From the NCBI RefSeq assembly GCF_002234915.1, contig NZ_NEWD01000026.1, forward strand, positions 1-64,000: DNA of 64,000 bases. The letters run 5' to 3'. Numbering within the stretch: position 1 is the first letter of the stretch; every line of letters begins with the position of its first letter. The translations under genes were made by a program, and so were the position numbers. The notes beneath the pieces are model-generated. The model did no database searches, was not told where the DNA came from, and saw only the letters and a program-made list of their open reading frames with translations. Of this stretch, positions 47,402 to 64,000 are shown in pieces. This DNA comes from Bifidobacterium vansinderenii. GTDB lineage: Bacteria > Actinomycetota > Actinomycetes > Actinomycetales > Bifidobacteriaceae.

Positions 47402-48565
47402 CTACAGGCGTGCGGCGATGAAGTCGGCGAGTTCGTGGCCCATGCGTTCGGCTTCGGGAATGCGGATATGACCGGGAGTGCCCGACCCATTGTCCGAATA
47501 CAGGAAGTGCACGATTCGCGGGTCGTCGATCCGTTCGCATACCTCATCGATTGACCGGTCCCATGACACGTCGTGGCACAGGATGGTGGTGGACAGCACG
47601 ATCAGCGCACGGGGATACCGTTCGCGCAGCTGCCCCACGAATCGTTGGTAGTGCGTGCGCCACTGTTCGGCCTGTTCGCAGTGATAGTCCCGTGCCATGT
47701 AATCGTCAGGGTGATTGTCGTTCTGGCCGATCGCCACCACGACCACATGCGGCGTGAACCGGCTGAAATCCCAAGGCTTGGCATCGCCCAATGTCGGGTT
47801 GTACTCCAGCTTGTCGTACGTGTCCTCCAGGCCCACGTAGTCCGGGCCGTTGAACCAGCCGGTCCCGGGCAGCAGGGCGATGCCACCCTGCGCGATGTCA
47901 TGCAGTTCGGCATTGAGCTTGCGGGCCGCGAACGCCGCATACGAATACCACGAATTCGAGTACTGTCCGTTGTTGTCGGCCGGGTCGGTGGCGCCGCAGC
48001 AGTGCAGCGCCTCCGCCACCTCGCCAGCCGACACCGAATCGCCATACACCTCCATGCGCAGCGCCGGGCGGGGATCGGCCGGCGACAGCGCTCGTACTCC
48101 GGCGTCGGTGCCCGTGACGGTGAAGCCTAGCAGTTCCACATGGTGACAGGCGTCCTGGCGCTTGAACACCGTCACGTCATGCATCACCGGGGTCAGTCCG
48201 TCGATCAGCGTGATCTCGACCTCGCGGTCGTCGGTGGGAATGTCAACCTTTCGTTGACATCCGTCGACGACCACGCCGATCGAGTTCTCCCAGTAGTTGT
48301 GCCGGTTGACAAGCCGCATGCGCAGCGCGGTGCCCTGGAAACGGAATGCGATCTGCGTATACGGGTAGATGAGTACCGGGCGGAGAGGGTCGTCGAAATC
48401 CACACGGCCGGTGTACCGCAGCACCGGGTCGTTCGGCAGGATATCGAGATGATGGGGAAGCGCGCGGCCGGTATCGGTGCCGGCACTCGTCGCGTTCATG
48501 AGATCGGGGTTCATGCTTATGGGTTGAGGCGTGGCCCGGATCGTGGACTGGGTGTTGTCAGGCAT
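47402..48565 (-). CDS. SGNH-type acetyl esterase, CE2-like
   Basis: 387 residues from the ATG at 48565 (AAGGTGAT upstream; a GTG three codons earlier is less well placed). No signal peptide. An N-terminal beta-sandwich domain (about 35-155, VLIYPYTQIAFRFQGTALRM) precedes the SGNH hydrolase domain with MEVYGDSVSAGE (Ser nucleophile), VVVAIGQNDNHPDD and the C-terminal SGTPGHIRIPEAERMG holding the His. CE2 enzymes remove acetyl groups from xylan or mannan oligosaccharides. Being cytoplasmic and next to mannan genes, it probably deacetylates imported manno-oligosaccharides. Confidence 0.85.
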   Translation of the reverse strand: MPDNTQSTIRATPQPISMNPDLMNATSAGTDTGRALPHHLDILPNDPVLRYTGRVDFDDPLRPVLIYPYTQIAFRFQGTALRMRLVNRHNYWENSIGVVVDGCQRKVDIPTDDREVEITLIDGLTPVMHDVTVFKRQDACHHVELLGFTVTGTDAGVRALSPADPRPALRMEVYGDSVSAGEVAEALHCCGATDPADNNGQYSNSWYSYAAFAARKLNAELHDIAQGGIALLPGTGWFNGPDYVGLEDTYDKLEYNPTLGDAKPWDFSRFTPHVVVVAIGQNDNHPDDYMARDYHCEQAEQWRTHYQRFVGQLRERYPRALIVLSTTILCHDVSWDRSIDEVCERIDDPRIVHFLYSDNGSGTPGHIRIPEAERMGHELADFIAARL

Positions 48566-48628
48566 GATGATCACCTTCGAATGGATATGGTTACGTTGGA
48601 GGCGTGGTGTCTGCGGACAGACGCCGGA

Positions 48629-50458
48629 TCAGAGGCTGAACGTGAACGGTTCGGCGGGCAGGCCCGCCTCATTGAACAGGGGAGCGGGGCCCCAGCTGAA
48701 CCAGCCGTAGCGGACGCCCTGGGGATGGGGCACGTCGTTGCTCCACACCATCACGGAAGGAACGGAATCGGTGTCCCCATGACCGTCAAGAATGCGTGCC
48801 TCCGCCGTATGCCAGTCGCCGTGCTCGTCGACTACCGCGAAGCCGGACTCGCCAGCCGGTAGCATGTCCGCATCGATCGGTTCGCCCAACGGCACATCCA
48901 CATCGGTGCCGAGTGCATCACCGTTGTAGTGGCCGAAGTGCAGGGAATCGGCATGCGCGAATGTCACGATCAGGTGATCGGCGCCATCGGCGGTGATCGT
49001 TGCAGCCGCCGGGCCATTGACCGGACGCAGCGCATCGGCGACCACGCTCTCCTCGTCGTAGACCCGAGCCAGTGCCATCGCGGTCAGACGCTCGCCCACG
49101 GTCTGCTTGTCCAATGGATGAATGTTGTCGAATTCGCCGCAGTCCAGCGTCACCACGGTATGCACGTCGTCGATCGTGCGGGCGGCATCCATTTGCGCCT
49201 CGCGGATGACTGGCCAATGGAACGAGTCCCGTCCGACATCGGTCCTGGCGATCCATCGCGGCAGCTGCACGATCAGGAACGGCAGCTGCGCGTGGACGGG
49301 GCCGGAGATATCGCGGCCGTTGCCGCGGCTGGCGTCGTTCCACAGTCCGCGCCATTCGTCGATCATCTCGCCGAGCAGGAATCGGTATCGATCGCAGTAC
49401 GCCTCGTCCTCCTCGCCCTGATACCACAGCACGCCATGGATGGTGTACGGTGCCACGCGCGAGACCATGGCCTCGAACGCGCCGCACGGACGGTACTGGC
49501 TGAACGGGGTCATGGGCGGCGGCCACGGACATTCGCCGTACTGCGCGTTCAACGTCTCCCACGTCGCATTCGGATCGACCTCGCGCGCGGCCGCGATGTT
49601 GGCGTTCCACGCGTTGAAGTCCACCTGCCACCGGTTCCACTCGTGACGCATCTCATCAAGATCCCGGCCGGTGACCTTCTGATCGTAGCGATCCAGATAC
49701 TCGCGTCCCGCTTCGGATTCCTCCAGGCGTGCCCGTCCCATCCAGCAGGTGATCGATGTGCCGCCGATGTAGCAGTCCACGATGCCGATGGGTACGCCGT
49801 CCATGTCGTCGGAACGCTCGGCCGCCAGACCGTTACGCAGCGTGCTGGCGAAGTAGTAGCCGACGGCCGACATCACGCCCACGGCATCCGGCGTGCAGAG
49901 CTCCCATCCGGAAGCGTTCTCGGCGTCAAGGTCGATCGATCCGGTCTTCGGGGTGTTATAGAAGCGCAGCAGCGGATCGAATGCCTCAGCCATCGTGGAT
50001 TCCGGGTGCAGACTGTTGCGCAGTTCGAGCTCCATGTTGCTTTGCCCGCCGGCCAGCCAGACTTCGCCGATGAGCACGTCGTCGAAGACGATCGCATCCG
50101 TGCCGTCGGTCACGGCGAGACGGTGCGGTGCGGCGCTCGCCGCCATGGCGGGCAGTGTGATCGTCCACTGCCCGGTCTGGTCGGTGAGAGCGCTGCCCGA
50201 GCTCATCGGAGACTCCTCGGAGGACAGTGCGATGCTGACGGTGATGAATGCACCGGGCGTGGCCGTTCCGAATACGGTGACGGGCTGGTGACGCTGCAGC
50301 ACCATATGGTCGGAGAACACCGCCGCCACGGAGAAGTTCGCGCGTTCGTTGCGGCGTGCCGTGGCACTATCCGACTGTGCGGAGTGTGCGTCACCTGCGG
50401 TGGCGTCGCTGAGGGTGCTGCCCGGTGCGGGGCCGGTGACGATGGATGTCTGTGCCAC
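48629..50458 (-). CDS. Sialate O-acetylesterase-family carbohydrate esterase
   Basis: About 609 residues. I place the start at GTG 50458, seven bases after AAAGGAG; the ATG at 50464 lies only two bases from that site. No signal peptide. SASA-domain signatures are FSVAAVFSDHMVLQRHQPV at the start, LAGGQSNMELELRNS with the Ser nucleophile, VLWYQGEEDEAYC and an Asp/His pair near NIHPLDKQTVGERL. The family removes O-acetyl groups from sialic acids and from plant glycans such as xylan and glucomannan. Context (CE2 esterase, mannan transporter, mannanase) favours glucomannan. The operator at 50535-50550 precedes it. Confidence 0.85.
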   Translation of the reverse strand: MAQTSIVTGPAPGSTLSDATAGDAHSAQSDSATARRNERANFSVAAVFSDHMVLQRHQPVTVFGTATPGAFITVSIALSSEESPMSSGSALTDQTGQWTITLPAMAASAAPHRLAVTDGTDAIVFDDVLIGEVWLAGGQSNMELELRNSLHPESTMAEAFDPLLRFYNTPKTGSIDLDAENASGWELCTPDAVGVMSAVGYYFASTLRNGLAAERSDDMDGVPIGIVDCYIGGTSITCWMGRARLEESEAGREYLDRYDQKVTGRDLDEMRHEWNRWQVDFNAWNANIAAAREVDPNATWETLNAQYGECPWPPPMTPFSQYRPCGAFEAMVSRVAPYTIHGVLWYQGEEDEAYCDRYRFLLGEMIDEWRGLWNDASRGNGRDISGPVHAQLPFLIVQLPRWIARTDVGRDSFHWPVIREAQMDAARTIDDVHTVVTLDCGEFDNIHPLDKQTVGERLTAMALARVYDEESVVADALRPVNGPAAATITADGADHLIVTFAHADSLHFGHYNGDALGTDVDVPLGEPIDADMLPAGESGFAVVDEHGDWHTAEARILDGHGDTDSVPSVMVWSNDVPHPQGVRYGWFSWGPAPLFNEAGLPAEPFTFSL

Positions 50459-50534
50459 GTTCATTCTCCTTTGACATGGTCGTGGGCGGGTGAATCCGTA
50501 TCTTCCCGTCATTGATGTCGACTGCTGATATATA

Positions 50535-50550
50535 CCTTAACCGATTAAGG
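50535..50550. promoter_or_regulatory. Mannan-locus operator O1
   Basis: CCTTAA-CCGA-TTAAGG, 6-bp arms; in the other strand CCTTAATCGGTTAAGG. It is 77 bases upstream of the esterase start at 50458 and just upstream of a TATATA (minus-strand -10 candidate). Three more copies lie at the other promoters of this locus. Confidence 0.65.
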
Positions 50551-50893
50551 CATATTGTGCATCGATAATTTCGTGATCTGAAAACTGATACGTGTCTCAA
50601 TCCTTTATTTTTCAACGTTTATATATGTTTCAATCATATGGTCAGCGGTGTGTCGTTGTCTGGAGCGACGTTAGTTGTAACTTGATCGATTCATTGCTGA
50701 AGCAAGTGCGATATGCCGATGGTGATGGCGATGGTGATGGCGAAAAACATACGGAACATACGATCTCCGATCTCGACCAATAATCAATCATCGTTGAAAT
50801 ACCAGTGTTTGTTGACTTGGTTATGGAAATCGAGACACGCCGGCGCTGGCGTTGAATATCAACGAAGACAGCGACGTCGCCGTCTGAAACAAC

Positions 50894-50930
50894 TTAAGCG
50901 GTTGACATACTGAAAACATTGGATTATGGT
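50894..50930 (+). promoter_or_regulatory. Promoter of the mannan ABC operon with operator O2
   Basis: TTGACA (50902-50907), 17 bases, TATGGT (50925-50930): a good sigma-70-type promoter. CTTAAGCGGTTGAC overlaps the -35 box and matches 11 of 14 positions of operator O1 (CTTAATCGGTTAAG). A repressor bound here would block polymerase. The leader to the binding-protein gene is about 180 nt. The region 50551-50890 shows AT-rich DNA and no gene. Confidence 0.7.
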
Positions 50931-51114
50931 GAAAGTCATCAAGTCGCGGAGCACGCGATACGTCATGACATGAACCGATCAATGCCTTCGGGCATCTCAT
51001 TCACGACGCATCGTTCCGAGACTGGACATCCACATGGTTCGTAGTCGATGCCATGCGGATCGGAGGGACAGCGAAGACCTCCGGGAAGATCTCAGTGATT
51101 GAGAGGACGAACAC

Positions 51115-52509
51115 ATGAACGTACTGAAGAAGATCGCCGCAGCCGCCGTCGCCGGCGCCTGCCTGATCAGCCTGGCTGCCTGCGGGAACAGCAGCGCCAG
51201 CGGAGAGACCACCGATCTCACCTACCCCGAGATCAAGCTGGGGGAGACCGGCAAGGACATCTCCACCACCATCAAGATGTTCAACCACCGCACCGATATG
51301 GCACAGTCCACCTATCCGGGCACGAACTGGGACGCCTACATCAAGGAGTTCAACAAGGTCTACCCGAACATCAAGGTGGAGGTGCAGACCAGCTCCAACT
51401 ACTCCAGTGACGCGCTCACCCGTCTGCAGGGTGGAGACTGGGGTGACATCATGATGATCCCCGCCGTCGACGCCTCCGAACTCGGCACCTACTTCCTCCC
51501 CTATGGTTCGGTCGATGACATGGGCAAGGTGATCAAGTACGCCACCAACCAGCGCTACGACGGCAAGACCTACGGCGTGCCCAGCGCCGGCAACGGCATG
51601 GGCATCGTGTACAACACCAAGGTGTTCGCCGACGCCGGCATCACCGATCTGCCCAAGACCCCGGACGAGTTCATCAACGATCTGAAGACCATCAAGGAGA
51701 AGGATCCCGGCGTCACGCCGCTGTACACCAACTACGCGGCCGGCTGGACCATGACCGCATGGGACGCCTACATCGGCGGCACCTCCACCGGCGACGCCAA
51801 GTACCTGAACCAGAAGCTCCTGCACACCAAGAACCCGTTCTCCGACCCCGGCGACGGCACCCACCCCTACAACGTGTACAAGGTGCTCTACGACGCCGTC
51901 TCCGACAAGCTCACCGAGGACGACTACTCCACCACCGACTGGGAGTCCAGCAAGGCCAAGCTGAACAACGGCGAATACGCCACCATGGTGCTCGGCGCAT
52001 GGGCGGTCTCCCAGATCAAGGCCGCCGGCGACCACGGCGACGATGTGGCCTACATGCCGTTCCCGATCAGCGTTGACGGCAAGCAGTACAGCTCCTCCTC
52101 CGCCGACTACGCCTACGGCATCAACAAGGACTCCTCCAAGGAGAACCAGGAGGCCTCCATGATCTTCGTCAAGTGGATGACCGAGAAGTCCGGCTACGCC
52201 ATGAACGAGGGCGGCATCCCCGTCAAGCAGGGAGACGACGAGCTGCCGGCCGTGTACGAGCACTTCAAGGACGTCACCTTCCTCGAGGACGAGCCCTCAG
52301 TGGACGGTGAGGAGGACCTGTTCAACGACCTCAACTCCGACTCCGAGCTGGCCATCAACGCCGACGGAAGCTCCCGCCTGCAGGCCCTGATCGAGGCCGC
52401 CGCCAACGGAACCAAGTCCTACGGCGATCTGGTCAAGGAATGGAACCAGAAGTGGAACTCCGCGCTGGACACCGAAGGCGTGGACGTGAAGTACGACACC
52501 GCCAAGTAG
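51115..52509 (+). CDS. ABC transporter sugar-binding lipoprotein
   Basis: 464 residues, ATG after AGAGGACGAA. A lipoprotein signal with lipobox LAAC (Cys23) anchors it outside the membrane. It is a cluster-1 extracellular solute-binding protein for carbohydrates: IKMFNHRTDM, WDAYIKEFNKVYPNIKVEVQ and GDIMMIPAVDASELGTYF lie in the N-lobe. Two permease genes follow. With the mannanase, mannosidases and acetyl esterases around it, manno-oligosaccharides are the likely ligand. No ATPase gene is present, as is normal in bifidobacterial sugar ABC operons that share one MsiK-type ATPase. Confidence 0.9.
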   Translation: MNVLKKIAAAAVAGACLISLAACGNSSASGETTDLTYPEIKLGETGKDISTTIKMFNHRTDMAQSTYPGTNWDAYIKEFNKVYPNIKVEVQTSSNYSSDALTRLQGGDWGDIMMIPAVDASELGTYFLPYGSVDDMGKVIKYATNQRYDGKTYGVPSAGNGMGIVYNTKVFADAGITDLPKTPDEFINDLKTIKEKDPGVTPLYTNYAAGWTMTAWDAYIGGTSTGDAKYLNQKLLHTKNPFSDPGDGTHPYNVYKVLYDAVSDKLTEDDYSTTDWESSKAKLNNGEYATMVLGAWAVSQIKAAGDHGDDVAYMPFPISVDGKQYSSSSADYAYGINKDSSKENQEASMIFVKWMTEKSGYAMNEGGIPVKQGDDELPAVYEHFKDVTFLEDEPSVDGEEDLFNDLNSDSELAINADGSSRLQALIEAAANGTKSYGDLVKEWNQKWNSALDTEGVDVKYDTAK

Positions 52510-52551
52510 TCCGCCCCGGCATCTCCAATCCAACTCCCGCTTATGCGGACG

Positions 52552-52582
52552 ATGCGCCCCGGAACCGTTCCGGGGCGCATCC
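52552..52582 (+). terminator. Strong hairpin between binding-protein and permease genes
   Basis: GATGCGCCCCGGAA (52552-52565) and TTCCGGGGCGCATC (52569-52582), a perfect 14-bp stem with a 3-nt loop and no T-tract. It probably protects the upstream mRNA and lets more binding protein than permease be made, as at the maltose genes of other bacteria. Confidence 0.75.
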
Positions 52583-52648
52583 CACATCATTCCCATCCCC
52601 AATCACAACGGCGGCTGAGTCGGCCGCATCGGCAACATGGAGCACGTC

Positions 52649-53716
52649 ATGACGACGACAACAATGGATGCGACGGCATATGCCGCTGTTCCCGAAAACA
52701 AGACCCCCAGGGATTGGCGCAAGGCACTGATCATCGTGGCCTTCGCTGCGATCCCGCTCACCCTGCTCATCGTGTTCACCTACCTGCCCTTCGGCAGCAT
52801 GGTGAGCTACAGCTTCTACAAGATGAAGTACATCGGCACGCCCCGCTGGGTGGGCCTCGACAACTACGTGCAGGTGTTCACCCGCCCCGACACTCTCTCC
52901 TCGCTCAAGCTGAGCCTCTACTACGCGGTGGGTGCGCTCATCCAGGTGGCGCTCGCCCTGTATCTGGCCACCATTCTGAGCTTCAAGGTGAAGGCCGGCA
53001 ACTTCTTCAAGGGAGCGTTCTTCTTCCCCTATCTGATCAACGGCATCGCAGTCGGCTTCATCTTCAAGTTCTTCTACACCCGCGGCTACGTACTCGACAC
53101 CGTGCTGCAATGGTGCGGGTTCGACCTCAACAACCTGCCCTACTGGCTCATGGACCAGTCGATCAACAACTGGTCGCTGGTGGGCGCGTCCATCTGGCGC
53201 TACCTCGGCCAGACCGTGATCCTGTTCATCGGCGCGATGATGTCGATCGACGGTTCGCTGTACGAGGCGGCCGAACTCGACGGTGCGAACAAGTTCCAGC
53301 AGTTCCTCCACATCATCCTGCCCAGCATCAAGACGATCCTCGTGCTCAACGTGATCCTGGCGATCACCGGTTCGCTTTCCGCCTTCGAGGGGCCGTACGT
53401 GATTACCTCCGGCGCGAACGGCACCGCCACGTACTTCGTGCTCATGGACCGACTGGCGCACGTGAACCAGAAGGTGGGTCTCGCCTCGGCCATGGCCGTG
53501 GTGCTGCTCATCATCATCCTGATCTGCGCCATGCTGCAGCAGCTGTTCTTCAACTATCTGTTCCGCGACGCGGACGACGGCGTGCAGAAGGCCCGCAAGA
53601 AGGCCCGCAAGGCCAGCCGCGCCCGTCAGCGCGTGGCCGCCGGCAAGGCCCCGCTGTTCCGCAACTCTTCCCCGGCCGTCGCGACCGCGTCGGCAGCAAC
53701 CAAGGAGGTGGCGTGA
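52649..53716 (+). CDS. ABC transporter permease, MalF-type
   Basis: 355 residues from ATG 52649, which has GGAG six bases upstream; an ATG four codons earlier overlaps that site. Six to seven membrane helices. Contains YLPFGSMVSYSFYKMKYIG after helix 1 and the ATPase-contact EAA loop YEAAELDGANKFQQFLHIILP. The C-terminal tail is long and basic (KARKKARKASRARQ). It ends in an ATGA overlap with the second permease gene. Confidence 0.92.
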   Translation: MTTTTMDATAYAAVPENKTPRDWRKALIIVAFAAIPLTLLIVFTYLPFGSMVSYSFYKMKYIGTPRWVGLDNYVQVFTRPDTLSSLKLSLYYAVGALIQVALALYLATILSFKVKAGNFFKGAFFFPYLINGIAVGFIFKFFYTRGYVLDTVLQWCGFDLNNLPYWLMDQSINNWSLVGASIWRYLGQTVILFIGAMMSIDGSLYEAAELDGANKFQQFLHIILPSIKTILVLNVILAITGSLSAFEGPYVITSGANGTATYFVLMDRLAHVNQKVGLASAMAVVLLIIILICAMLQQLFFNYLFRDADDGVQKARKKARKASRARQRVAAGKAPLFRNSSPAVATASAATKEVA

Positions 53717-54663
53717 TGACCGCCATGACCGAAACGCCTCGCACCATGAACAAGACCAACGCCCCCCGGCCGTCGCACGTCGCCCGCGGCGAGGTCTCGA
53801 ACGCCGAATACTGGAAGACGTTCCTGTACAACGCCAAGGTCTGGTTCTTCCTCTTCCTCAAGTACTTCAGTCTGGTGTTCTGCGCCTTCTGGTTCCTGCT
53901 GCCCGTGGTCAGCTGCTTCGTGACCGCGGCCAAGACCGAACGCGAATACCAGACCACGTCGGTCATGCAGATGCCGGCCAACTGGCTGAACTTCCAGAAC
54001 TACATCGACGCCTTCCGCCTGTCGAACATGGCCGTCGCGTTCCGCAACTCGCTGATCGTGCTCGTGGTGGTGCTCGTCATCACCACGCTGATTGGCACGC
54101 AGCTCGCTTACGTGCTCAGCCGATTCCAGTTCCCCGGCAACGCCGTGATCCGCATGCTGTTCACTGTGGCGGCCCTGCTGCCCGGCATCGCCATGCAGGT
54201 CTCGATGTACAAGATCATGACCAACCTGCACATGGTCAACACGCTGTGGGGATACATCATCATGATGTGCGGCACCGACGTGATCTCGATCTACGTGTTC
54301 ATCCAGTACTTCGAGAACATCCCGGTCTCGCTCGACGAATCCGCCATCATGGACGGCTGCTCCTACTTCACCGTATATTCGCGCATCCTGCTGCCGCTGC
54401 TCAAGCCGGCCATCGTCACCTGCCTGATCCTCAAGGGCGTGGGCGTGTACAACGAGTACTACGCGGCGAACCTCTACCTCCAGGACAAATCGACGCTCGG
54501 CACGGTGGCCATATCGCTGTACTCGTTCACCGGCCCGCAGGGCAGCAAGTACAACCTGATCTGCGCCGGAGTGATCATCACGCTGCTGCCCATGCTCATC
54601 CTGTTCCTCGCCTTCCAGAAGCAGATCTACAACGGCATCGCCGCCGGCGCCGTCAAGGAGTGA
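53716..54663 (+). CDS. ABC transporter permease, MalG-type
   Basis: 315 residues, ATG at 53716 overlapping the previous TGA, AAGGAGGT six bases before it. Six membrane helices. The EAA loop is DESAIMDGCSYFTVYSRILLP. It pairs with the MalF-type protein to form the membrane channel. The GH1 gene starts four bases after its stop, in the same operon. Confidence 0.93.
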   Translation: MTAMTETPRTMNKTNAPRPSHVARGEVSNAEYWKTFLYNAKVWFFLFLKYFSLVFCAFWFLLPVVSCFVTAAKTEREYQTTSVMQMPANWLNFQNYIDAFRLSNMAVAFRNSLIVLVVVLVITTLIGTQLAYVLSRFQFPGNAVIRMLFTVAALLPGIAMQVSMYKIMTNLHMVNTLWGYIIMMCGTDVISIYVFIQYFENIPVSLDESAIMDGCSYFTVYSRILLPLLKPAIVTCLILKGVGVYNEYYAANLYLQDKSTLGTVAISLYSFTGPQGSKYNLICAGVIITLLPMLILFLAFQKQIYNGIAAGAVKE

Positions 54664-54667
54664 TCGC

Positions 54668-56047: not shown

Positions 56048-56124
56048 CGGTTCCGCAATCACGCCAACTGTCCCGCATTCATCAACGCATTCCAATACCC
56101 CACGTACTTTCAACGGAGAACATC

Positions 56125-58812
56125 ATGAACACACCCGGCACCTTCCATGAACTGCAGTCCGGCTGGACCGTCGCGGCCCTGAACCCCGAGGTCGCGCCGG
56201 AGCCCGTGCGCGACGCGATCGCCGCCGGCATCGACGCCGTGGTCCCCGGCGAGGTGACGCTCGACCTGGTCCGTGCCGGACTGATCGACGAGCCGTTCGA
56301 CGGCGACAACGAGACCCGCCAGCAGTGGATCGGCGACGTCGACTGGCGATACACCTGCGCGTTCGCATGGCACGACGACGGCTCCGACCGCCACGATCTG
56401 GTCGCCTACGGACTCGACACCGTGGCCACGGTCATGGTCAACGGCCGCTACGTCGGCTCCACACAGAACTACCACCGCACCTACCGCTGGGATGTGCGCG
56501 AACTGCTGCGCGACGGCATGAACGAACTGACCGTCACGTTCGCGTCGTCCGTACGCGAATCAGACATGCGCGAACAGCGCCTCGGCTACTACCCGCACAC
56601 CGAGCATCACGCGTTCAACCAGCTGCGCAAGCCCAGCTACCAGTTCGGCTGGGACTGGGGAATCGACGTGGCCAACGCCGGCATCTGGCAGGCCATCGGC
56701 ATCGACTCCTGGTCCGACGTACGTCTCGCCGCCGTGCGTCCGCTCGTGGACGTGACCGGCGACGGCACCGGACTACTTACCACCACCGTGGAGATCGAAC
56801 GCGCCGGCAACGGGCGACTGATGAGCCCGTACGACAGGGCCGCATCCATGCCCGCCGTGCCGGTAAGCGTGCGCGTGCGCGGCCGCAACGCGAACGGCGA
56901 CGACGTGGACGTGACCGTGCGCGGCGAGATCGCACAGGGCCGTACCACCGCAACGCTCACCGCCACCGTGCCGAACGCCGACCTGTGGTGGCCGATCGGC
57001 TACGGCGACCAGCCGCTATACGACGTGGACGTGACCGCGGAGGAGGGCGCCGCCGCATGGCACGGTCGCGTCGGCTTCCGCACCACGCACGTGGACACCC
57101 GCGCCGACGAGGTCGGCCGACCGTTCCAGATCTACGTGAACGACGTGCCAGTGCATGCGCGCGGCTACAACTGGGTGCCGATCGACGCGTTCATCACCCG
57201 CGGCGACCGCGCATTCTACGAACGCCGGTTCCGCGATCTCGTCGAATCGAACTCCAACATGGTGCGCGCCTGGGGCGGCAGCATCTACGAGACCGACGAC
57301 TTCTACGATCTGGCCGACGAACTCGGCATCATGGTCTGGCAGGACTTCATGCTCGCCTGCGCCGCCTACCCGGAGGACGCCGAGACCCGCGCCGAGATCG
57401 AGGCCGAGGCCCGTCAGCAGATCACCCGACTGTGCCCGCACCCGAGCCTGATCGTATGGAACGGATCCAACGAGAACTACGTGGCCTACTCCGAATGGGG
57501 CGGCTACAAGCAGGCACTGCGAGACGACGACAGGCCGGCCAACGCCTACGGCTACGGCGAAAAAGGCTGGGGCGACCACTACTACGCCGAACTGTTCCCG
57601 CGCCTACTCGCCGAACTCGACCCCACGCACGTGTACCTGCCCAGCTCCCCGATGAGCTTCACCCCGTTCGTCGACGCCAACAAGGACGTGGACGGCACCA
57701 TGCACATCTGGGACGTGTGGAACCGCGTGGACTACCGCCACTACGCCGACTACACGCCACGCTTCGCCGACGAGTTCGGCTACCAGGCGCCGCCCGCGTT
57801 CAGCACGCTCACCCGCGTGGTGCACGACGACGTACTCGAGCCGTTCGGCACGCAGATGCTCGTGCACCAGAAGGCCATGGGCGGCAACTACAAGCTCGCC
57901 CGCGGCATGCGCGGCCACCTCACTCCCGGCCACATCGACGACGTGAGCTACCGCGAGGACGGCACGCGTGACTGGCTCATCCCCACCGACGAATGGGCGA
58001 ACATCGAGGACTGGCACTGGGCCTGCCAGCTCCAGCAGGCGCAGGCCATCCGCTTCGGCGTGGAGCACATGCGCTCGCTCGAACCCGTGAACGCCGGCAC
58101 GCTCATCTGGCAGCTCAACGACGACTGGCCGGTCGTCTCCTGGGCCGCCGTGGACTACTACGGCCACCGCAAGCCCATGTGGCACGCGTCCCGCGACTTC
58201 TTCGCGCCCCGACTCGCCACGATCCAGCCTCGCGTATCCGAACGCGCTCGCGAGGACCGCAGCTGGGAAGGCAAGAAGGTGGCCGCCGACCATCTGGCGC
58301 TTGTGCTGCTCAACGACACCCGTTCGGCATGGTCCGGCAGTTGGACCGTGGAACGCCGCACGCTGGCCGGCGACGTGCTCGCCACGCAGCGGTTCGACGT
58401 CACGCTCGACCCGATCTTGCACGTCACGCTTGCGCTGAACGCCGAGGTCGGCGGATTCGACGACCCGACGAACGAGATCATCGTGGCCACGCCGAGCGAC
58501 AACGCCTTCGCCCGTGTGATCCACAACCCGGCCGAGATCATCGACCAGAAGCTCGAGTGCTCGCCGCTGGAGGCCTCGGCCCGCGTCGTTGCCGGCGGAT
58601 ACGAGATCGCCGTCACCGCTCGCGCCTACGCGCGCGACGTGTTCTGCATGGTCGACAAGGTGGACGAGAACGCCTCGATCAGCGGCGGCATGGCGACGCT
58701 GCTGCCCGGCGAATCCGTGACTTGGACCGTCTTCGGCGCTGCCGCCGGCATCGACCCGACGCTGTTCGTCGCACCCAACGTGCTGCGCTGCGGCAACGAT
58801 CTCAAGCGCTGA
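56125..58812 (+). CDS. GH2 beta-mannosidase
   Basis: 895 residues, ATG at 56125 preceded by CGGAGAAC. No signal peptide. The N-terminal sugar-binding domain contains YQFGWDWGIDVANAGIWQ, typical of beta-mannosidases in GH2. The barrel has RAWGGSIYETDDFYDLADEL and MVWQDFMLACAAYP, acid/base Glu450 in WNGSNEN and nucleophile Glu550 in FADEFGY. It removes terminal beta-1,4-mannose from manno-oligosaccharides. It lies 77 bases after the GH1 gene and upstream of the LacI gene, in one direction with the transporter. Confidence 0.93.
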   Translation: MNTPGTFHELQSGWTVAALNPEVAPEPVRDAIAAGIDAVVPGEVTLDLVRAGLIDEPFDGDNETRQQWIGDVDWRYTCAFAWHDDGSDRHDLVAYGLDTVATVMVNGRYVGSTQNYHRTYRWDVRELLRDGMNELTVTFASSVRESDMREQRLGYYPHTEHHAFNQLRKPSYQFGWDWGIDVANAGIWQAIGIDSWSDVRLAAVRPLVDVTGDGTGLLTTTVEIERAGNGRLMSPYDRAASMPAVPVSVRVRGRNANGDDVDVTVRGEIAQGRTTATLTATVPNADLWWPIGYGDQPLYDVDVTAEEGAAAWHGRVGFRTTHVDTRADEVGRPFQIYVNDVPVHARGYNWVPIDAFITRGDRAFYERRFRDLVESNSNMVRAWGGSIYETDDFYDLADELGIMVWQDFMLACAAYPEDAETRAEIEAEARQQITRLCPHPSLIVWNGSNENYVAYSEWGGYKQALRDDDRPANAYGYGEKGWGDHYYAELFPRLLAELDPTHVYLPSSPMSFTPFVDANKDVDGTMHIWDVWNRVDYRHYADYTPRFADEFGYQAPPAFSTLTRVVHDDVLEPFGTQMLVHQKAMGGNYKLARGMRGHLTPGHIDDVSYREDGTRDWLIPTDEWANIEDWHWACQLQQAQAIRFGVEHMRSLEPVNAGTLIWQLNDDWPVVSWAAVDYYGHRKPMWHASRDFFAPRLATIQPRVSERAREDRSWEGKKVAADHLALVLLNDTRSAWSGSWTVERRTLAGDVLATQRFDVTLDPILHVTLALNAEVGGFDDPTNEIIVATPSDNAFARVIHNPAEIIDQKLECSPLEASARVVAGGYEIAVTARAYARDVFCMVDKVDENASISGGMATLLPGESVTWTVFGAAAGIDPTLFVAPNVLRCGNDLKR

Positions 58813-58893
58813 GCGTGCGGTGAGCGCACGGTGAACGTGCGGCACGCGCACGATTGATGCGTGCCGCATACATGAATGCAAAGGAAGCCCCCG

Positions 58894-59922
58894 ATGAAAT
58901 CCAAGGTGACCATCGCCGACGTGGCCAAGGCCGCGGGCGTGTCCAACAGCGCGGTGTCGTACGCGTTGAACGGCAAGGACGGCGTCTCCGAAAAGACGCG
59001 CAGCAAGGTGCTCGCCGTGGCCGACCATCTGGGATGGAAGCCCAACAGCGCGGCCAAGGCGCTGTCCGACGCCAGCACGCGCACGGTCGGCCTGGTGCTC
59101 ACATACGCCACCAGTGTGCTGTCGGTGGAGTCGTACACCACGGAGCTCATCGCAGGACTCACCTCGGAATTCGAGAAGGAGGGCTACTCACTGCTCGTGC
59201 GGGCGTCGTCGAACCGGGAGTATGAGCTGTCGGTGCTGCGCGAATGGATCGCCACCGGCGCCGTGGACGCCGTGTTGCTGATGAATATCGAGCTGGGGGA
59301 TCCCCGCATCGAGCTGTTCAAGTCGCATCCCGACATGCCGGTGCTGCTGCTGTGCGACGAGAAGCTCTCCGAGGGACTGCCGTCGCTGTCCGACAACGAG
59401 CGCAGCGCGGCCCATCTCATCGTCGACTACTGCCACGAGACCGGTCATCGGCGCATCGCCCGTGTGGCCGGACCCGAGGAGATGGGCCATACGTTCATCC
59501 GCGATAATGCCTTCCGCGAAGAGGTCATGGAACTCGACATGCGCTACACATGCTTGCATTCCGACTATTCGCCGCAGGCCGGCGCCCGTTGCACCGAGCG
59601 GCTGCTGGCGCTGCCGGACCGGCCCACCGCCATCGTGTACGACAACGATGTGATGGCCGTGTCCGCCATCCGTACGGCCGCCGCTCTAGGGATCCGCGTG
59701 CCCGACGATCTGGCCATCATCTCGTGGGATGACTCGTTCATGTGCGAGATGAGCACGCCCAGTGTCACCGCCCTGAACCGTGACGTGGTGGCACGTGGTC
59801 GCCGGGCCGCGCGCATGCTCATCGAACTCGCCGAACAGCATGCGGTGCGGCCCGTGATCGAGGACGACAACGATCTGATCTTCCGCGAATCCAGCGCCGC
59901 GAACGTGGCCATGGCCGCGTGA
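58894..59922 (+). CDS. LacI-family regulator of the mannan locus
   Basis: 342 residues from ATG 58894, six bases after AAAGGAAG; an ATG six codons earlier lacks a site. HTH TIADVAKAAGVSNSAVSYAL at 7-26 and hinge NSAAKALSDAST. The sensor domain has SWDDSFMCEMSTPSVTALNRD near the end. The palindromic CTTAAnCGGTTnAG sites at four promoters around it are its likely operators. The effector would be a manno-oligosaccharide or mannose derivative. Confidence 0.92.
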   Translation: MKSKVTIADVAKAAGVSNSAVSYALNGKDGVSEKTRSKVLAVADHLGWKPNSAAKALSDASTRTVGLVLTYATSVLSVESYTTELIAGLTSEFEKEGYSLLVRASSNREYELSVLREWIATGAVDAVLLMNIELGDPRIELFKSHPDMPVLLLCDEKLSEGLPSLSDNERSAAHLIVDYCHETGHRRIARVAGPEEMGHTFIRDNAFREEVMELDMRYTCLHSDYSPQAGARCTERLLALPDRPTAIVYDNDVMAVSAIRTAAALGIRVPDDLAIISWDDSFMCEMSTPSVTALNRDVVARGRRAARMLIELAEQHAVRPVIEDDNDLIFRESSAANVAMAA

Positions 59923-59977
59923 CCGGCAATCTCATTCAGCTTTATTCATTCGTTCATCAATGGAAAGGACGACAATT

Positions 59978-61249
59978 ATGACCGCACCATCCTCCTCCGC
60001 ATTCGACGTCGCGACGCGCGATCCGAAGTACGTGCTCGGCACGCCGGAGAACCGTGTGTTCCTCGAAGCCGCGCGCAACGGCCTGCTCGATTTCGGCCAC
60101 GCGTTCCCCTCGCCCGGCGGCGGCTCCTACTGGCTGGGCGACGACGGCACGCCGTGGAAGGACCGCAACCGCGAGACGTGGATCACCTGCCGCATGACGC
60201 ACGTGTATTCGCTCGGCGCGATGCTTGGTCATCCCGGTTCCGAAGAGCTGATCGACGCCGGCCTGCGCGGTCTCGCCGGCGAACTGCATGACAACGCCAA
60301 CGGCGGCTGGTACGCGGCCGTAACGCCCGAGGGTGGGCACGTCGGCACCAAGCAGTGCTACGCGCACGCCTTCGTGCTGCTCGCCGCGTCCTCCGCCCTG
60401 CTGGCTGGCCGGCCGGGTGCCGCCGAGCTGCTTGCCGACGCGCAGGACGTGTTCCTCAAGCGGTTCTGGGACGACGAGACCGGTCTGGCCGTGGACACGT
60501 GGAACGAGGACTTCACCGAACTCGACCCCTACCGTGGACTCAACGCCAACATGCACTCCGTGGAGGCGTTCCTGGCCGTGGCAGACGCCACCGGCGACGA
60601 ATCCTGGCGCGAGCGCGCCGGGTGCATCGTCGATCACGTGATCGGCTGGGCATCCTCCAACGAATGGCGCATTCCCGAGCACTTCCACACCGACTGGAGC
60701 TTGGACCTCGAATGCAACCGCGAACGCCCCGACGACCAGTTCAAGCCGTACGGCGCCACGCCGGGTCATGGCATCGAGTGGGCTCGTCTGATCACGCAGT
60801 ACGCGTTGAGTGTTCCCGGTCTGCCGGAATCGAAGAGAACCGCGCTGGTGGAGGCTGCCGAATCCCTGTTCCGCCGTGCCGTGGCCGACGCGTGGGATGC
60901 GGACGGTGCGCCCGGACTCGTGTACACCACCGACTGGAACGGTGTTCCCGTGGTGCACGACCGCATGCACTGGACGCTCGCCGAGGCGATCAACACGTCG
61001 TCCGTGCTCGCGCACGTGACCGGCAGGAGCGAATACGCCGACTGGTACGCCACGTTCTTGGCGTACGGGGACGAGTATGTGATGGATCACAAGCACGGCT
61101 CTTGGTTCCACCAGCTCGATCGCGAGAACCGCGTGATCGGCACGGTGTGGCCGGGCAAGTCCGACCTGTACCACGCCACGCAGTCCATGATCATTCCGTT
61201 GCTGCCCGATCCGGCGGTGTCGATCGCCACCGCGGTGAAACGCGGCTGA
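59978..61249 (+). CDS. AGE-superfamily aldose-ketose isomerase, YihS/mannose isomerase type
   Basis: 423 residues, ATG nine bases after AAAGGA. An (alpha/alpha)6 barrel enzyme. It follows YihS closely: WITCRMTHVYSLGAMLGHPG (Arg72, His75), LNANMHSVEAFL (His193), TPGHGIEWARL (His264), IVYTTDWNG-like VYTTDWNGVPVV and DLYHATQ (His399). YihS and mannose isomerases interconvert free mannose and fructose without a phosphate. The product fructose can be phosphorylated and enter the bifid shunt, so this closes the mannan pathway. Mannobiose or cellobiose 2-epimerase is the alternative in the same superfamily, but the TPGHGIEW and LNANMH motifs favour the isomerase. Confidence 0.85.
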   Translation: MTAPSSSAFDVATRDPKYVLGTPENRVFLEAARNGLLDFGHAFPSPGGGSYWLGDDGTPWKDRNRETWITCRMTHVYSLGAMLGHPGSEELIDAGLRGLAGELHDNANGGWYAAVTPEGGHVGTKQCYAHAFVLLAASSALLAGRPGAAELLADAQDVFLKRFWDDETGLAVDTWNEDFTELDPYRGLNANMHSVEAFLAVADATGDESWRERAGCIVDHVIGWASSNEWRIPEHFHTDWSLDLECNRERPDDQFKPYGATPGHGIEWARLITQYALSVPGLPESKRTALVEAAESLFRRAVADAWDADGAPGLVYTTDWNGVPVVHDRMHWTLAEAINTSSVLAHVTGRSEYADWYATFLAYGDEYVMDHKHGSWFHQLDRENRVIGTVWPGKSDLYHATQSMIIPLLPDPAVSIATAVKRG

Positions 61250-61264
61250 TTCCCGGATATACGA

Positions 61265-61296
61265 AGGCTCCCGGCGGTTTGCCGGGAGCCTTGTGT
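61265..61296 (+). terminator. Terminator of the mannan operon
   Basis: AGGCTCCCGGC (61265-61275) and GCCGGGAGCCT (61281-61291), an 11-bp stem with a 5-nt loop, followed by TGTGTTTGT. It lies between the isomerase stop and the stop of the convergent DUF624 gene. Confidence 0.85.
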
Positions 61297-61307
61297 TTGT
61301 GCGGGTC

Positions 61308-61928
61308 TTACCGGATGATGGCGGCACGGCGCATCAGCGCGATCACGAGCCATGCGGTGCAACCGGTGAGCACGATGCCCCACAACGCGCCGGCGAGAAC
61401 CGGGCCGCCGGGCGCGAACAGCAGTACGGCGAACGGAACGGTGTTCAGGGCCGTGACGGCGAATGCGATCAGCGGATGCGCCAACGCCACGGCGAACGAC
61501 TGGCGGATCTGAGCGCCCACAGTGAGTTCGCTGCGGGCCATGACCGGGAACACGAAGCTCAAACCGGCGGCGATTACGGCGATCACGGCCGCGCAGATGC
61601 CGTAGGCAAGCGAGGCGAACGTCACGCTGGGCAGTCGGTGCGTGATGTACCACAGGTCGAACATGGACAAGGCCCAGAAGACCTCGATGATGAGCGTGAC
61701 GGCGATGGACGTGCCAAGCCGGCGACGGAACGCGGTGAGGAACTTGCGCAGTACATGCGCATCGTCGCCCTCGTGGATGTCGCGTGCCACCTCGTACAGC
61801 GCTGCGGTGGACGCTCCGGCGGTGACGACCGGCAGGCAACAGACGGCCCATGCGACGTTGACCATGGCGAGGTCACCGATGGTGGACATGACATCGTTGT
61901 AGGCGTTGCTTTGGGCGAGGGTTTTCAT
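61308..61928 (-). CDS. DUF624 (YesL-family) membrane protein
   Basis: 206 residues from the ATG at 61928, seven bases after AAGGAG. Five to six predicted membrane helices. It has the family pattern GDLAMVNVAWAVCCLPVVTAGASTAALYEV near the start, where the CLPVVTAGAS turn is diagnostic, and a central FLTAFRRR cytoplasmic loop. DUF624 genes often lie with carbohydrate ABC transporters, but their job is unknown. Here it forms a short minus-strand unit with the anchored protein upstream, both behind operator O3. Confidence 0.85.
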   Translation of the reverse strand: MKTLAQSNAYNDVMSTIGDLAMVNVAWAVCCLPVVTAGASTAALYEVARDIHEGDDAHVLRKFLTAFRRRLGTSIAVTLIIEVFWALSMFDLWYITHRLPSVTFASLAYGICAAVIAVIAAGLSFVFPVMARSELTVGAQIRQSFAVALAHPLIAFAVTALNTVPFAVLLFAPGGPVLAGALWGIVLTGCTAWLVIALMRRAAIIR

Positions 61929-62021
61929 GATGAACTCCTTGTTCGGTATTGCATGCGGTACGTGCACGGTGCGACGGTGTGCATAAGAGGATGAGTCTGG
62001 GGATAACAGGAACGTTTCTGT

Positions 62022-62777
62022 TCAGCCGCGCAGATAGTCGATGAATCGCTGTGCGTTGGCGCGGTTGGCGGATTCCTGCGCCAGTCCGATGTAGGTGGGG
62101 TTGATGCCCGCCGTGTCGGCCTCGGTGTCCGCGCCGGTCGTGTTCCGCCACCGGTCGAATCCGGCCAGATTCACGCCGAATGGTTCGGCTGCGCCCTTGC
62201 CGGATCCGTTGTATTCCGGATCGTCGGTATCACGGTCGTCGAATCCGGCGAATTCGGTGATGCTGCCGGCGAGCGCGGTGTGCTGATTGGCGGTGAGCGT
62301 GCCGTCGAGGTCGGTCATGTAGCCATATCCGGCGAGCGTGGCGAAATCGTCCCGGTCGGCGATGATCACGTCGATCTCGCCGTTGCCGAGCATGGTCTGC
62401 AGTTTGGCCAGACCGTCCTTGTCAAGATCGAAGTAGTCGTCGACGAGCACGCCCGACTCACGCCCCTCGGGCAGATTCAGCGCCGTTGCGGCGCCGGCCT
62501 GCAACGCCGATGCCGTCGCGGTGTCGATGGTGTTGTTGATCACGGCCACGTAGAGCGCGGGCCTGGGGGAAGGGAGAACGAACTGCACGGCGAGAAACGT
62601 CACGACGGCAAGGCCGGTGAGTGTGGCAAGTGTGCGGACCATGAGCTGATCCCGGAAGTACGACCAGCGCTGCCCGGCAGGAAGGGCGCGCAGGATCGCC
62701 AGCCGGGAGCGGCCTGCGTCGGCCAGCTCCGCAGCGGTCCTCGCACGCGTGGAATCGGCGGGATCCTGTGACGTCAT
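62022..62777 (-). CDS. Membrane-anchored protein with solute-binding-like domain
   Basis: 251 residues from the ATG at 62777, six bases after GGAGG. A cytoplasmic N-terminus (about 1-55) is followed by one membrane helix (TLATLTGLAVVTFLAVQFVL). The outer domain of about 165 residues opens PALYVAVINNTIDTATASAL and has GEIDVIIADRDDFATLAGYG, a pattern like one lobe of a periplasmic binding protein. I do not recognise a named family. With DUF624 it may form an accessory to the transporter or a surface sensor for mannan fragments; this is speculation from position and operator sharing. Confidence 0.7.
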   Translation of the reverse strand: MTSQDPADSTRARTAAELADAGRSRLAILRALPAGQRWSYFRDQLMVRTLATLTGLAVVTFLAVQFVLPSPRPALYVAVINNTIDTATASALQAGAATALNLPEGRESGVLVDDYFDLDKDGLAKLQTMLGNGEIDVIIADRDDFATLAGYGYMTDLDGTLTANQHTALAGSITEFAGFDDRDTDDPEYNGSGKGAAEPFGVNLAGFDRWRNTTGADTEADTAGINPTYIGLAQESANRANAQRFIDYLRG

Positions 62778-62804
62778 CGTGCACCTCCAGTATCGATATA
62801 CAGC

Positions 62805-62842
62805 ACTATACGTGGAAAATCGCATTTTGTGAAGCGGTTAAG
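62805..62842 (-). promoter_or_regulatory. Minus-strand promoter with operator O3
   Basis: On the minus strand TTCACA (62828-62833) and TATAGT (62805-62810) are 17 bases apart. CTTAACCGCTTCAC (62829-62842) overlaps the -35 box and matches the mannan-locus operator. It drives the anchored protein and DUF624 genes. Confidence 0.7.
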
Positions 62843-62957
62843 TTTTGTTTTGAGAAATTCGATGAATTGAAAGCAATTATTCATAGGAATTTGCTAAAAA
62901 ATATGAATTGTCTGCTGAACATATCAGATTATCTCGAGCTTCTTCACGTCTGGCCTA

Positions 62958-62981
62958 TAGTGTCAATTAATCGGTTCAGTA
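62958..62981 (+). promoter_or_regulatory. Operator O4 at the mannanase promoter
   Basis: TATAGT (62958-62963) is a -10 candidate, with no clear -35. ATTAATCGGTTCAG (about 62968-62981) follows it, matching the consensus TTAAkCGGTTnAG. A repressor here would stop early elongation of the GH26 gene that starts at 63018. Confidence 0.6.
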
Positions 62982-63017
62982 ATGCAATGCGGCAGCCGAT
63001 GAGGAAGGACACCACCG

Positions 63018-64000
63018 ATGATCCCAGTAATGACCCAACCGTATCCGAATGGAAAAACCGGCGTACGATCACGACTACGGCGTATCACCGGCGTATTGGC
63101 ATGCGCCGGAATGATCCTGACGGGAGGAGTGCTCACCATGGCCACGACGGCAACCATCCCTACCGCATCCGCCGCGGAATCTTCATCCACGGTAGCCATT
63201 GCCGACCATGATGCCACGGCCGAGACTAGGGCGTTGTTCGCCAAACTGCGGGATGCGGACGGCTCGATCATGACCGGTCAGCAGCACGCCAACGACTACG
63301 CGGTCTCCACCGACGAGGAGAACCAGGGCACCGGCTCCGACATCTACGCGCTCACCGGCGAATACCCGTCCGTCTGGGGCATGGACACGCTGTCGATCTA
63401 CGGACATGAAAGCCCCGGTGTGCGTCCGAACAACGCATGCGACGAGTCCTGTCAGGCGGGCAACATCGCCACTCTTGACGGTAAGATCAGGCAGGCCGAC
63501 AGCCTCGGCGCCATGGTCACGCTTTCCTCGCACTGGTTCAATCCCGTTTCCGGCGGTGGTTTCAACGACACCACCAGGGCCGTCGACCGGATCCTGCCCG
63601 GCGGTACCGACCAGTCGGCGTTCAATGCGTACCTTGACCGCATCGCCGACCTCGCTAACGGTGCCAGGCGCGATGACGGCACGCTCATCCCGATCGTCTA
63701 CCGTCCGCTGCACGAGAACAACGGATCATGGTTCTGGTGGGGCGCCACCCACGCCACCAGCGACGAATACAAGGAGCTCTACCGATACATCGTCGATTAC
63801 CTCACCGAGGTGAAGGACGTGCGCAACGTGCTCTTCTCTTACTCTCCCAACGGCACGTTCGGCGGGGACCTGAGCACGTATCTGGAAACCTACCCCGGCG
63901 ACGACTACGTGGACGTGCTCGGCTACGACGCCTACGACAACGGTGATGTGAATGACTCCAGCGCGTGGGTCGCCGATGTGGTGAAGGACCTTGCGGCCAT
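63018..64000 (+). CDS. Secreted GH26 endo-beta-mannanase (3' end beyond window)
   Basis: The first 327 residues; the frame runs off the window. ATG at 63018 after AGGAAGGAC. Signal peptide with RSRLRR and a hydrophobic core, cleavage near ASA|AESS (about residue 52). GH26 signatures are MTGQQHANDY, YPSVWGMDTLSIYG, MVTLSSHWFNPVSGG and IPIVYRPLHENNGSWFWWG, where Glu233 is the acid/base. The nucleophile Glu should follow beyond the visible part. GH26 mannanases cut beta-1,4-mannan backbones outside the cell, feeding the ABC importer. Any binding modules or cell-wall anchor would be in the missing part. Confidence 0.92.
   Translation, partial: MIPVMTQPYPNGKTGVRSRLRRITGVLACAGMILTGGVLTMATTATIPTASAAESSSTVAIADHDATAETRALFAKLRDADGSIMTGQQHANDYAVSTDEENQGTGSDIYALTGEYPSVWGMDTLSIYGHESPGVRPNNACDESCQAGNIATLDGKIRQADSLGAMVTLSSHWFNPVSGGGFNDTTRAVDRILPGGTDQSAFNAYLDRIADLANGARRDDGTLIPIVYRPLHENNGSWFWWGATHATSDEYKELYRYIVDYLTEVKDVRNVLFSYSPNGTFGGDLSTYLETYPGDDYVDVLGYDAYDNGDVNDSSAWVADVVKDLAA

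Follow-up and report, generated by a model that had tools for sequence, protein, structure and literature searches.

The closest described counterparts of the locus examined here come from other bifidobacteria and from Roseburia. According to passages of PMC8106489, Bifidobacterium animalis subsp. lactis ATCC 27673 possesses two manno-oligosaccharide receptors, BlMnBP1 and BlMnBP2, together with an ATP-binding cassette (ABC) importer, a beta-mannosidase, and a beta-glucosidase, and passages of PMC4642672 describe BaMan26A from Bifidobacterium adolescentis, a cell-attached GH26 enzyme with a carbohydrate-binding part. Mannan degradation by bifidobacteria was described in 2019 as largely underexplored (passage of PMC6344601). 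We analyzed a 64,000-nucleotide stretch of Bifidobacterium vansinderenii (assembly GCF_002234915.1), hereafter the window, which comprises positions 1-64000 of contig NZ_NEWD01000026.1 (C19, 96,695 bases) in a genome of 3.1 Mb. Twelve genes from position 47402 onward were read, with a probability of about 0.88, as a LacI-controlled beta-mannan utilization system whose substrate is most likely acetylated glucomannan. The locus resembles that of ATCC 27673 in its binding-protein type, ABC importer, beta-mannosidase, and beta-glucosidase, and its GH26 protein resembles BaMan26A in cell attachment and in having a carbohydrate-binding part; these two cases bear out the remark in a preliminary description of this DNA that mannan loci are known in some bifidobacteria.

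We considered that a cell-wall-anchored GH26 endo-mannanase would cut the polymer outside the cell and that the ABC importer, with its BlMnBP-like lipoprotein, would take in the resulting manno-oligosaccharides. In the cytoplasm, a CE2 and a SASA esterase would strip acetyl groups, and at the non-reducing end the GH1 enzyme would take off glucose and the GH2 enzyme mannose. Free mannose would be converted to fructose by a YihS-subfamily isomerase, and a presumed fructokinase would form fructose 6-phosphate for the bifid shunt. The sequence provided family identity, motifs, export signals, a shared promoter motif, and conserved linkage; we infer all of the catalytic activities, the acetylation of the substrate, which regulator reads the motif, and the fructokinase step.

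All twelve genes were present as open frames where the preliminary description had placed them. Pfam assigned eleven to the families named there, the exception being the anchored protein at 62022-62777 (minus strand), which joins the others by its predicted fold; at 47402-61967, each gene had at least one family over the curated cut-off. The expected catalytic motifs, within which we presumed the choice of catalytic residues, were found in the CE2, SASA, GH1, GH2, and GH26 proteins. None of the CE2, SASA, GH1, GH2, and isomerase proteins contained a hydrophobic 19-residue segment, so the two esterases were rightly labeled signal-less. In the closest relative (G008), the importer, the DUF624 pair, the GH26 gene, and a second LacI gene are grouped, and the GH1-GH2-isomerase genes lie about 20 kb off; the window thus holds both blocks together. 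Sequenced strains of B. reuteri, B. vespertilionis, and B. apri also contain related loci.

The GH26 gene (63018-64000, plus strand, continuing to contig position 65522) encodes 834 amino acids with a signal peptide. Its product scored 164 bits against PF02156 (cut-off 20.2), with LHENNG at residue 231 and AMTEFG at residue 340, and its best PDB match was Cellulomonas fimi Man26A (E 1e-99, residues 56-527), the downstream domain of Man26A included. These features support assignment as a GH26 endo-beta-1,4-mannanase of the Man26A type, and the signal peptide, the Man26A match, and the catalytic Glu motifs agree with the secreted mannanase first described. Extension past position 64000, which the preliminary description had called for, brought in the end of the gene with a CBM11-like domain (residues 538-670) and a C-terminus in which an LSRTG motif is followed by a hydrophobic stretch and an RRR tail. 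Since the two nearest bifidobacterial relatives (in L004 and L094) share this kind of ending, with LVRTG and LASTG, respectively, the mannanase is suggested to be sortase-anchored. Several related mannan loci carry, in place of such a secreted and anchored enzyme, a GH26 protein of about 400 amino acids without a hydrophobic segment (L005:17743-18891, L007:19817-21022, L102, L103, and others).

The importer genes, predicted earlier as a lipoprotein and two permeases, were recovered as a solute-binding protein (SBP) with an LAAC lipobox and SBP_bac_1 domain (51115-52509) and two BPD_transp_1 (PF00528) permeases (52637-53716 and 53710-54663), all on the plus strand. Four PDB entries lay close to the binding protein (573 bits for 6fuv, down to 563 bits), and the next, unrelated entry reached 59 bits. 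All four are titled BlMnBP1 and three titles name manno-oligosaccharides; a passage of the review PMC8106489 assigns 6FUV to BlMnBP2, unlike the PDB title. The alignment spanned 421 residues and was nearly gap-free. At E <= 1e-60, the binding protein had one match in its own genome and was found in 37 of the 189 genomes of the family that we surveyed.

The CE2-type esterase (47402-48574, minus strand) had CE2_N (PF17996, 83.6 bits) and GDSL (PF13472, 33.3 bits) domains over cut-off, with GDS, GQND, and GH motifs. Next to it, the SASA-type (sialate O-acetylesterase-like) esterase (48629-50512, minus strand) scored 44 bits against PF03629 (cut-off 24.8), matched PDB entries 9ega, 7kmm, and 9h4u (E 2e-45 to 2e-43), and displayed GQSNM, YQGE, and NIHP motifs. 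Families, motifs, and the lack of hydrophobic segments agree with the two signal-less acetyl esterases proposed at the outset. Seven named bifidobacterial loci (L005, L007, L009, L016, L026, L028, and L068) share the window's side-by-side placement of the CE2 and SASA genes; in L006 and L010 the CE2 gene sits at one edge of the retrieved sequence, and L012 has a SASA gene without CE2. Because complementary esterase pairs are a pattern in Roseburia and Bacteroides, the SASA enzyme is predicted to remove acetyl groups left by CE2, with a predicted division between 3/4/6-O and 2-O acetyls. The presence of two signal-less esterases would also point to an acetylated substrate, for instance glucomannan. 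The pairing of two cytoplasmic deacetylases of different families, singled out as notable in the preliminary description, does occur here but was already known in Roseburia; what differs is the SASA-type second family.

The GH1 protein (54668-56047, plus strand; PF00232, 509 bits) passed the beta-glucosidase model TIGR03356 (559 bits, cut-off 478.5) and stayed far under the cut-offs of the phospho-glycosidase models, in line with a non-phospho type. For the GH2 protein (56101-58812, plus strand; PF22666), the closest PDB entries were the beta-mannosidases 5n6u (E 1e-105) and 2je8 (E 3e-95), and the nearest named relatives were from B. reuteri (76%), B. apri (76%), and B. aerophilum (75%). Both fit the exo-enzyme roles first given to them.

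Regulation was examined through the two divergent promoter regions, between the SASA and SBP genes (50513-51114) and between the tethered-protein and GH26 genes (62778-63017). The LacI regulator predicted earlier is encoded at 58876-59922 (plus strand; PF00356 and PF13377), and a second LacI gene (LacI2) lies just outside the window after GH26, at contig positions 65629-66669; closer relatives of LacI2 sit between the GH2 and isomerase genes in L196-L199. The plain LacI consensus TGNNANCGNTNNCA, allowing one mismatch, gave one site in the examined intergenic regions and was replaced by a motif derived from a palindrome seen at two sites, which was then applied to the window, to the whole genome, and to related loci. 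With at most one mismatch, this 12-base motif, TTAAYCGRTTNA, matched six places in the window (eight strand matches; shuffled control: mean 0.71, largest 3). All six fell within the two intergenic regions, which make up 842 bp or 1.3% of the window: 50537-50548, 50682-50693, 50894-50905 (overlapping a TTGACA box), and 50971-50982 in the first, and 62830-62841 and 62967-62978 in the second. Exact matches in the 3.1 Mb numbered three, two of them at the locus and the third ahead of a transporter gene on contig C21, and the reversed control gave none.

The related loci served as an independent test of the motif. Its strict form, with at most one mismatch, occurred in 15 of 17 of them, where 0 to 0.15 matches were expected per locus; a stricter form had no match in contig stretch L003. 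In relatives, the motif often reads CTTAACCGGTTGACAAA and overlaps a TTGACA box some 180 bases ahead of the SBP gene, the window counterpart being the site at 50894. As read from positions, 12 of the 14 loci in which the region ahead of the SBP gene is covered have a site there, no more than about 350 bases from the gene, and 10 of 15 have one a short distance ahead of the tethered-protein gene. Since the operator-like motif is common to both divergent promoter regions, the two esterase genes, the run from the importer to the isomerase, the DUF624 gene with its tethered partner, and the mannanase gene likely form one LacI regulon. Together with the BlMnBP-type receptor, the Man26A-type endo-enzyme, and the GH2 beta-mannosidase matches, this shared motif makes beta-mannan the best, and a well supported, reading of the substrate; the receptor, GH26, and GH2 matches are all of the mannan type by sequence, as the preliminary description had supposed.

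The mannose step was assigned to the AGE-superfamily protein at 59960-61249 (plus strand; PF07221, GlcNAc_2-epim, 396 bits). It scored 336 bits against YihS (E 3e-99) and 139 bits against 5x32, the mannose isomerase of Marinomonas (passage of PMC7762179). The D-mannose isomerase model NF051846 gave 412.6 bits, in contrast to 26 bits for the cellobiose epimerase (EpiA) model. The YihS center, three histidines aligned to His176, His248, and His383 plus an arginine, was kept in every covering row of a 34-row alignment, in which the window protein and one truncated copy were among the rows. By these residues and scores the protein belongs to the YihS subfamily and not to the cellobiose/mannobiose epimerase branch, which upholds the original YihS-type call, and conversion of mannose to fructose would be the simplest role of its clade. 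A literature search on bifidobacteria and mannose isomerase returned no title on a bifidobacterial enzyme, subscription papers being mostly outside that search.

Conserved linkage points the same way. All 22 near-full-length copies with 69% or more identity to the window protein (itself included) are found by mannan or beta-mannosidase genes: 18 lie within 22 kb of an SBP, GH26, or listed DUF624 gene, and 4 beside a GH2 and a LacI gene. Among 35 lower-identity control copies (tblastn, flanks of about 7 kb), one had mannan-locus genes (L205 in G028, 68%); two further lower-identity copies, in G016 and G158, have an SBP gene nearby. Given 22 of 22 against 1 of 35, the clade at or above 69% identity belongs with beta-mannosidase. 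Partial copies at or above this level numbered five, three of which (L200, L201, and L203) lie by a GH2, DUF624, or tethered-protein gene. L205 (G028:C1:175000-191000), with short GH2 and DUF624 matches, and L201 (G015:C10), with its isomerase in two pieces, seem to be decaying mannan loci. In Glycomyces, a YihS-type isomerase is found near a GH2 beta-mannosidase-like gene (L021:14650-16011, L027:13126-16086), and this linkage may therefore not be confined to bifidobacteria. A second YihS-type isomerase in the window's own genome (66%; L180:8886-10145, C66:101885) has no mannan-locus gene beside it and stands among GH28, alginate-lyase-like, and 2-hydroxyacid dehydrogenase genes; the isomerase family therefore has other roles in this genome.

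Across the 189 genomes, isomerase matches, fragments included, were found in 103, GH26 in 34, and the phosphomannose isomerase catalytic domain in 95, this last count covering the PF20511 type, with bifunctional and type II forms outside the search. The isomerase was carried by 30 of the 34 GH26 genomes (Fisher p 7e-6) and phosphomannose isomerase by 20 of the 34 (p 0.34), both values uncorrected for kinship. The isomerase was present in 35 of the 37 binding-protein genomes, and in 16 of these 35 phosphomannose isomerase was not detected. The idea that bifidobacteria lack phosphomannose isomerase altogether was dropped: a PF01238 probe of 48 positions gave 0 of 189, but PF20511 gave the 95 above.

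Other readings of the isomerase and of the locus were weighed against these data. The best PDB matches of the isomerase are YihS/sulfoquinovose isomerases, and it might therefore be a sulfoquinovose isomerase or an enzyme for another sugar that is at the locus by chance. We regard this as improbable: Gln362 of YihS is replaced by His in all 34 rows and Gln379 by Ser, Pro, or Ala (Ser in the window protein), and the replacement of these glutamines, which we take to be the sulfonate contacts, would count against sulfoquinovose. The locus families include no sulfoglycolysis partner, and the clade is linked to beta-mannosidase and mannan genes. The shared superfamily PF07221, and the presence of epimerases in such loci (passages of PMC6385246), would also allow a mannobiose/cellobiose 2-epimerase feeding GH130, as in Roseburia and Bacteroides. 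The EpiA score far below that of the mannose isomerase model, the three-histidine YihS center, and the GH2 beta-mannosidase-like enzyme make this very improbable, and a phosphorolytic route is unlikely because the window's genome had no GH130 (PF04041) match; over cut-off, GH130 was found in 6 of the 189 family genomes. Finally, GH2 beta-mannosidases also act on N-glycan cores, and the system could serve host N-glycan mannose or another beta-mannoside in place of plant mannan. There is little to be said for this reading, since a secreted Man26A-type endo-enzyme and a BlMnBP-type receptor are present along with acetyl esterases, which N-glycans are not expected to need. A YihS-subfamily mannose isomerase within a beta-mannan system thus stays our preferred interpretation.

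The DUF624 membrane protein (61308-61967, minus strand; PF04854, 54 bits; model md3a6daefd707) and the membrane-tethered protein beside it correspond to the DUF624 and anchored binding-like proteins of the preliminary description. For the tethered protein, no Pfam family passed its cut-off (SBP_bac_1 reached E 0.031), and its sequence gave no PDB match at E <= 1; it has one N-terminal transmembrane segment, and its predicted structure, a membrane anchor with a long helix bearing a mini binding-protein fold, matched solute-binding proteins. The DUF624 protein resembles MusI (NF052431, 89.1 bits). DUF624 occurs in 142 of the 189 genomes, and in 8 of 30 other bifidobacterial loci retrieved (L151-L154, L165, L173, L177, and L178) its gene neighbors ABC permease genes. 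The notion that every DUF624 has a tethered partner was rejected, as among the 30 loci L149-L178 (flanks of about 1.2 kb) only L172, a mannan locus, had one; in L008 (B. scaligerum) a DUF624 gene near GH2 has no tethered partner. Membrane anchoring with the long helix, and an own transcription unit with operator-like sites in front, could instead mark the pair as a sensor of mannan fragments and not part of the importer. We find this doubtful given the DUF624 genes beside ABC permeases, the MusI-like score, and the absence of a signaling domain by Pfam, and the two proteins are probably importer accessories. A wider joint proposal is tentative, and we think it unlikely to hold in full: that in bifidobacterial mannan loci the tethered protein and DUF624 (MusI-like, possibly of CysZ fold) are a co-regulated accessory unit dedicated to the ABC importer, which might, for instance, offer another site for docking or capture and pass ligand on to the canonical lipoprotein and the permeases, and that roughly two fifths of the species with such loci feed mannose into metabolism solely by unphosphorylated isomerization to fructose. 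Searches of the literature on DUF624/YesL and MusI found nothing useful, most subscription papers again being outside their reach.

Several observations weigh against the interpretation as a beta-mannan system with a mannose isomerase, or narrow it. Three proteins fell short of curated levels: CE2 against NF042969 (86.5 bits, cut-off 500), so that the NCBIfam CE2 AxeC2 level was not reached, the isomerase against NF051846 (cut-off 600), and the DUF624 protein against NF052431 (cut-off 160). One receptor loop contains two positions at which BlMnBP1 carries Asn and 6fuv carries Gly; the window protein differs from both there, with His and Ala, and affinity for short oligosaccharides and fine specificity are therefore not readable from its sequence. 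The motif count in the window is partly circular because the motif was written from two of its own sites; it was missing in two of the 17 related loci (L011 and L187), and some matches in relatives fall inside genes, three in L007 for example. The isomerase match was absent from 2 of the 37 genomes with the binding protein, and two of the five partial copies (L202 and L204, in G005 and G027) had no mannan-locus genes. A phosphomannose isomerase catalytic-domain match (PF20511) was present in the window's own genome, so the unphosphorylated route need not be the sole route for mannose; the emphasis first placed on an unphosphorylated mannose isomerase stands for the unusual step itself, but has to be tempered by this match. 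Pfam found no alpha-galactosidase among the twelve locus proteins. Because of this, and with two Melibiase (GH36) matches elsewhere in the genome, galactomannan is less likely as the main target; one GH36 gene lies inside the B. canis locus (L010). No ATPase was found among the twelve either, and fructokinase was not looked for, so although the twelve genes stand, calling the locus complete was slightly too strong.

Upstream of the locus, a pilin-like protein with SpaA and GramPos_pilinBB domains and an LPKTG anchor is encoded at 43646-45697 (plus strand), and the frame at 45800-46732 (plus strand), between the pilin and the locus, has a weak HTH_Tnp_2 match below cut-off.

The analysis yields a testable account of how bifidobacteria beyond a few studied strains may use acetylated glucomannan, a common dietary fiber. 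It ties a specific isomerase clade to mannan loci, with the prediction that many of these bifidobacteria process mannose without prior phosphorylation; it proposes CE2 and SASA as another family combination for complementary deacetylation; and it draws attention to a pair of tethered mini binding protein and DUF624 that recurs in mannan loci, often behind the operator-like motif.

Compared with the known systems, ATCC 27673 employs a GH5 mannanase and two binding proteins (passages of PMC8106489), whereas the window has an anchored GH26 mannanase, one binding protein, two esterases, and an isomerase; no GH5 mannanase was found among its twelve locus proteins, to which this test was confined. 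BaMan26A carries a tandem CBM23 (passages of PMC4642672), in contrast to the single CBM11-like match here, and bifidobacterial GH26 frames of 1019-1191 amino acids (L085-L093 and L095), presumably of the BaMan26A type, were 40-43% identical to the window GH26 over the matched part. The Roseburia intestinalis locus, as presented in passages of PMC6385246, shares GH26, an ABC importer, LacI, and two cytoplasmic esterases of different families, the second named CE17 in a passage of PMC13276840. It has an epimerase, GH130 phosphorylases, and phosphomannose isomerase, whereas the window would rely on GH2 hydrolysis, a YihS-type isomerase, and a SASA-type second esterase. Passages of PMC13276840 also describe CE7 and CE25 of Bacteroides cellulosilyticus, a complementary mannan deacetylase pair, as predicted for the window, but from other families and another phylum. 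The D-mannose isomerase of Pseudomonas geniculata is, like the window's protein, an aldose-ketose isomerase of the YihS subfamily with a three-histidine center; it is a characterized enzyme, which the relevant passages of PMC7762179 do not tie to a mannan locus. The kind of system is thus already known, and the window differs in its combination of an anchored GH26 mannanase, the CE2 and SASA esterases, a YihS-type isomerase, and the tethered pair, among which the mannose step and the extra tethered binding protein are unusual.

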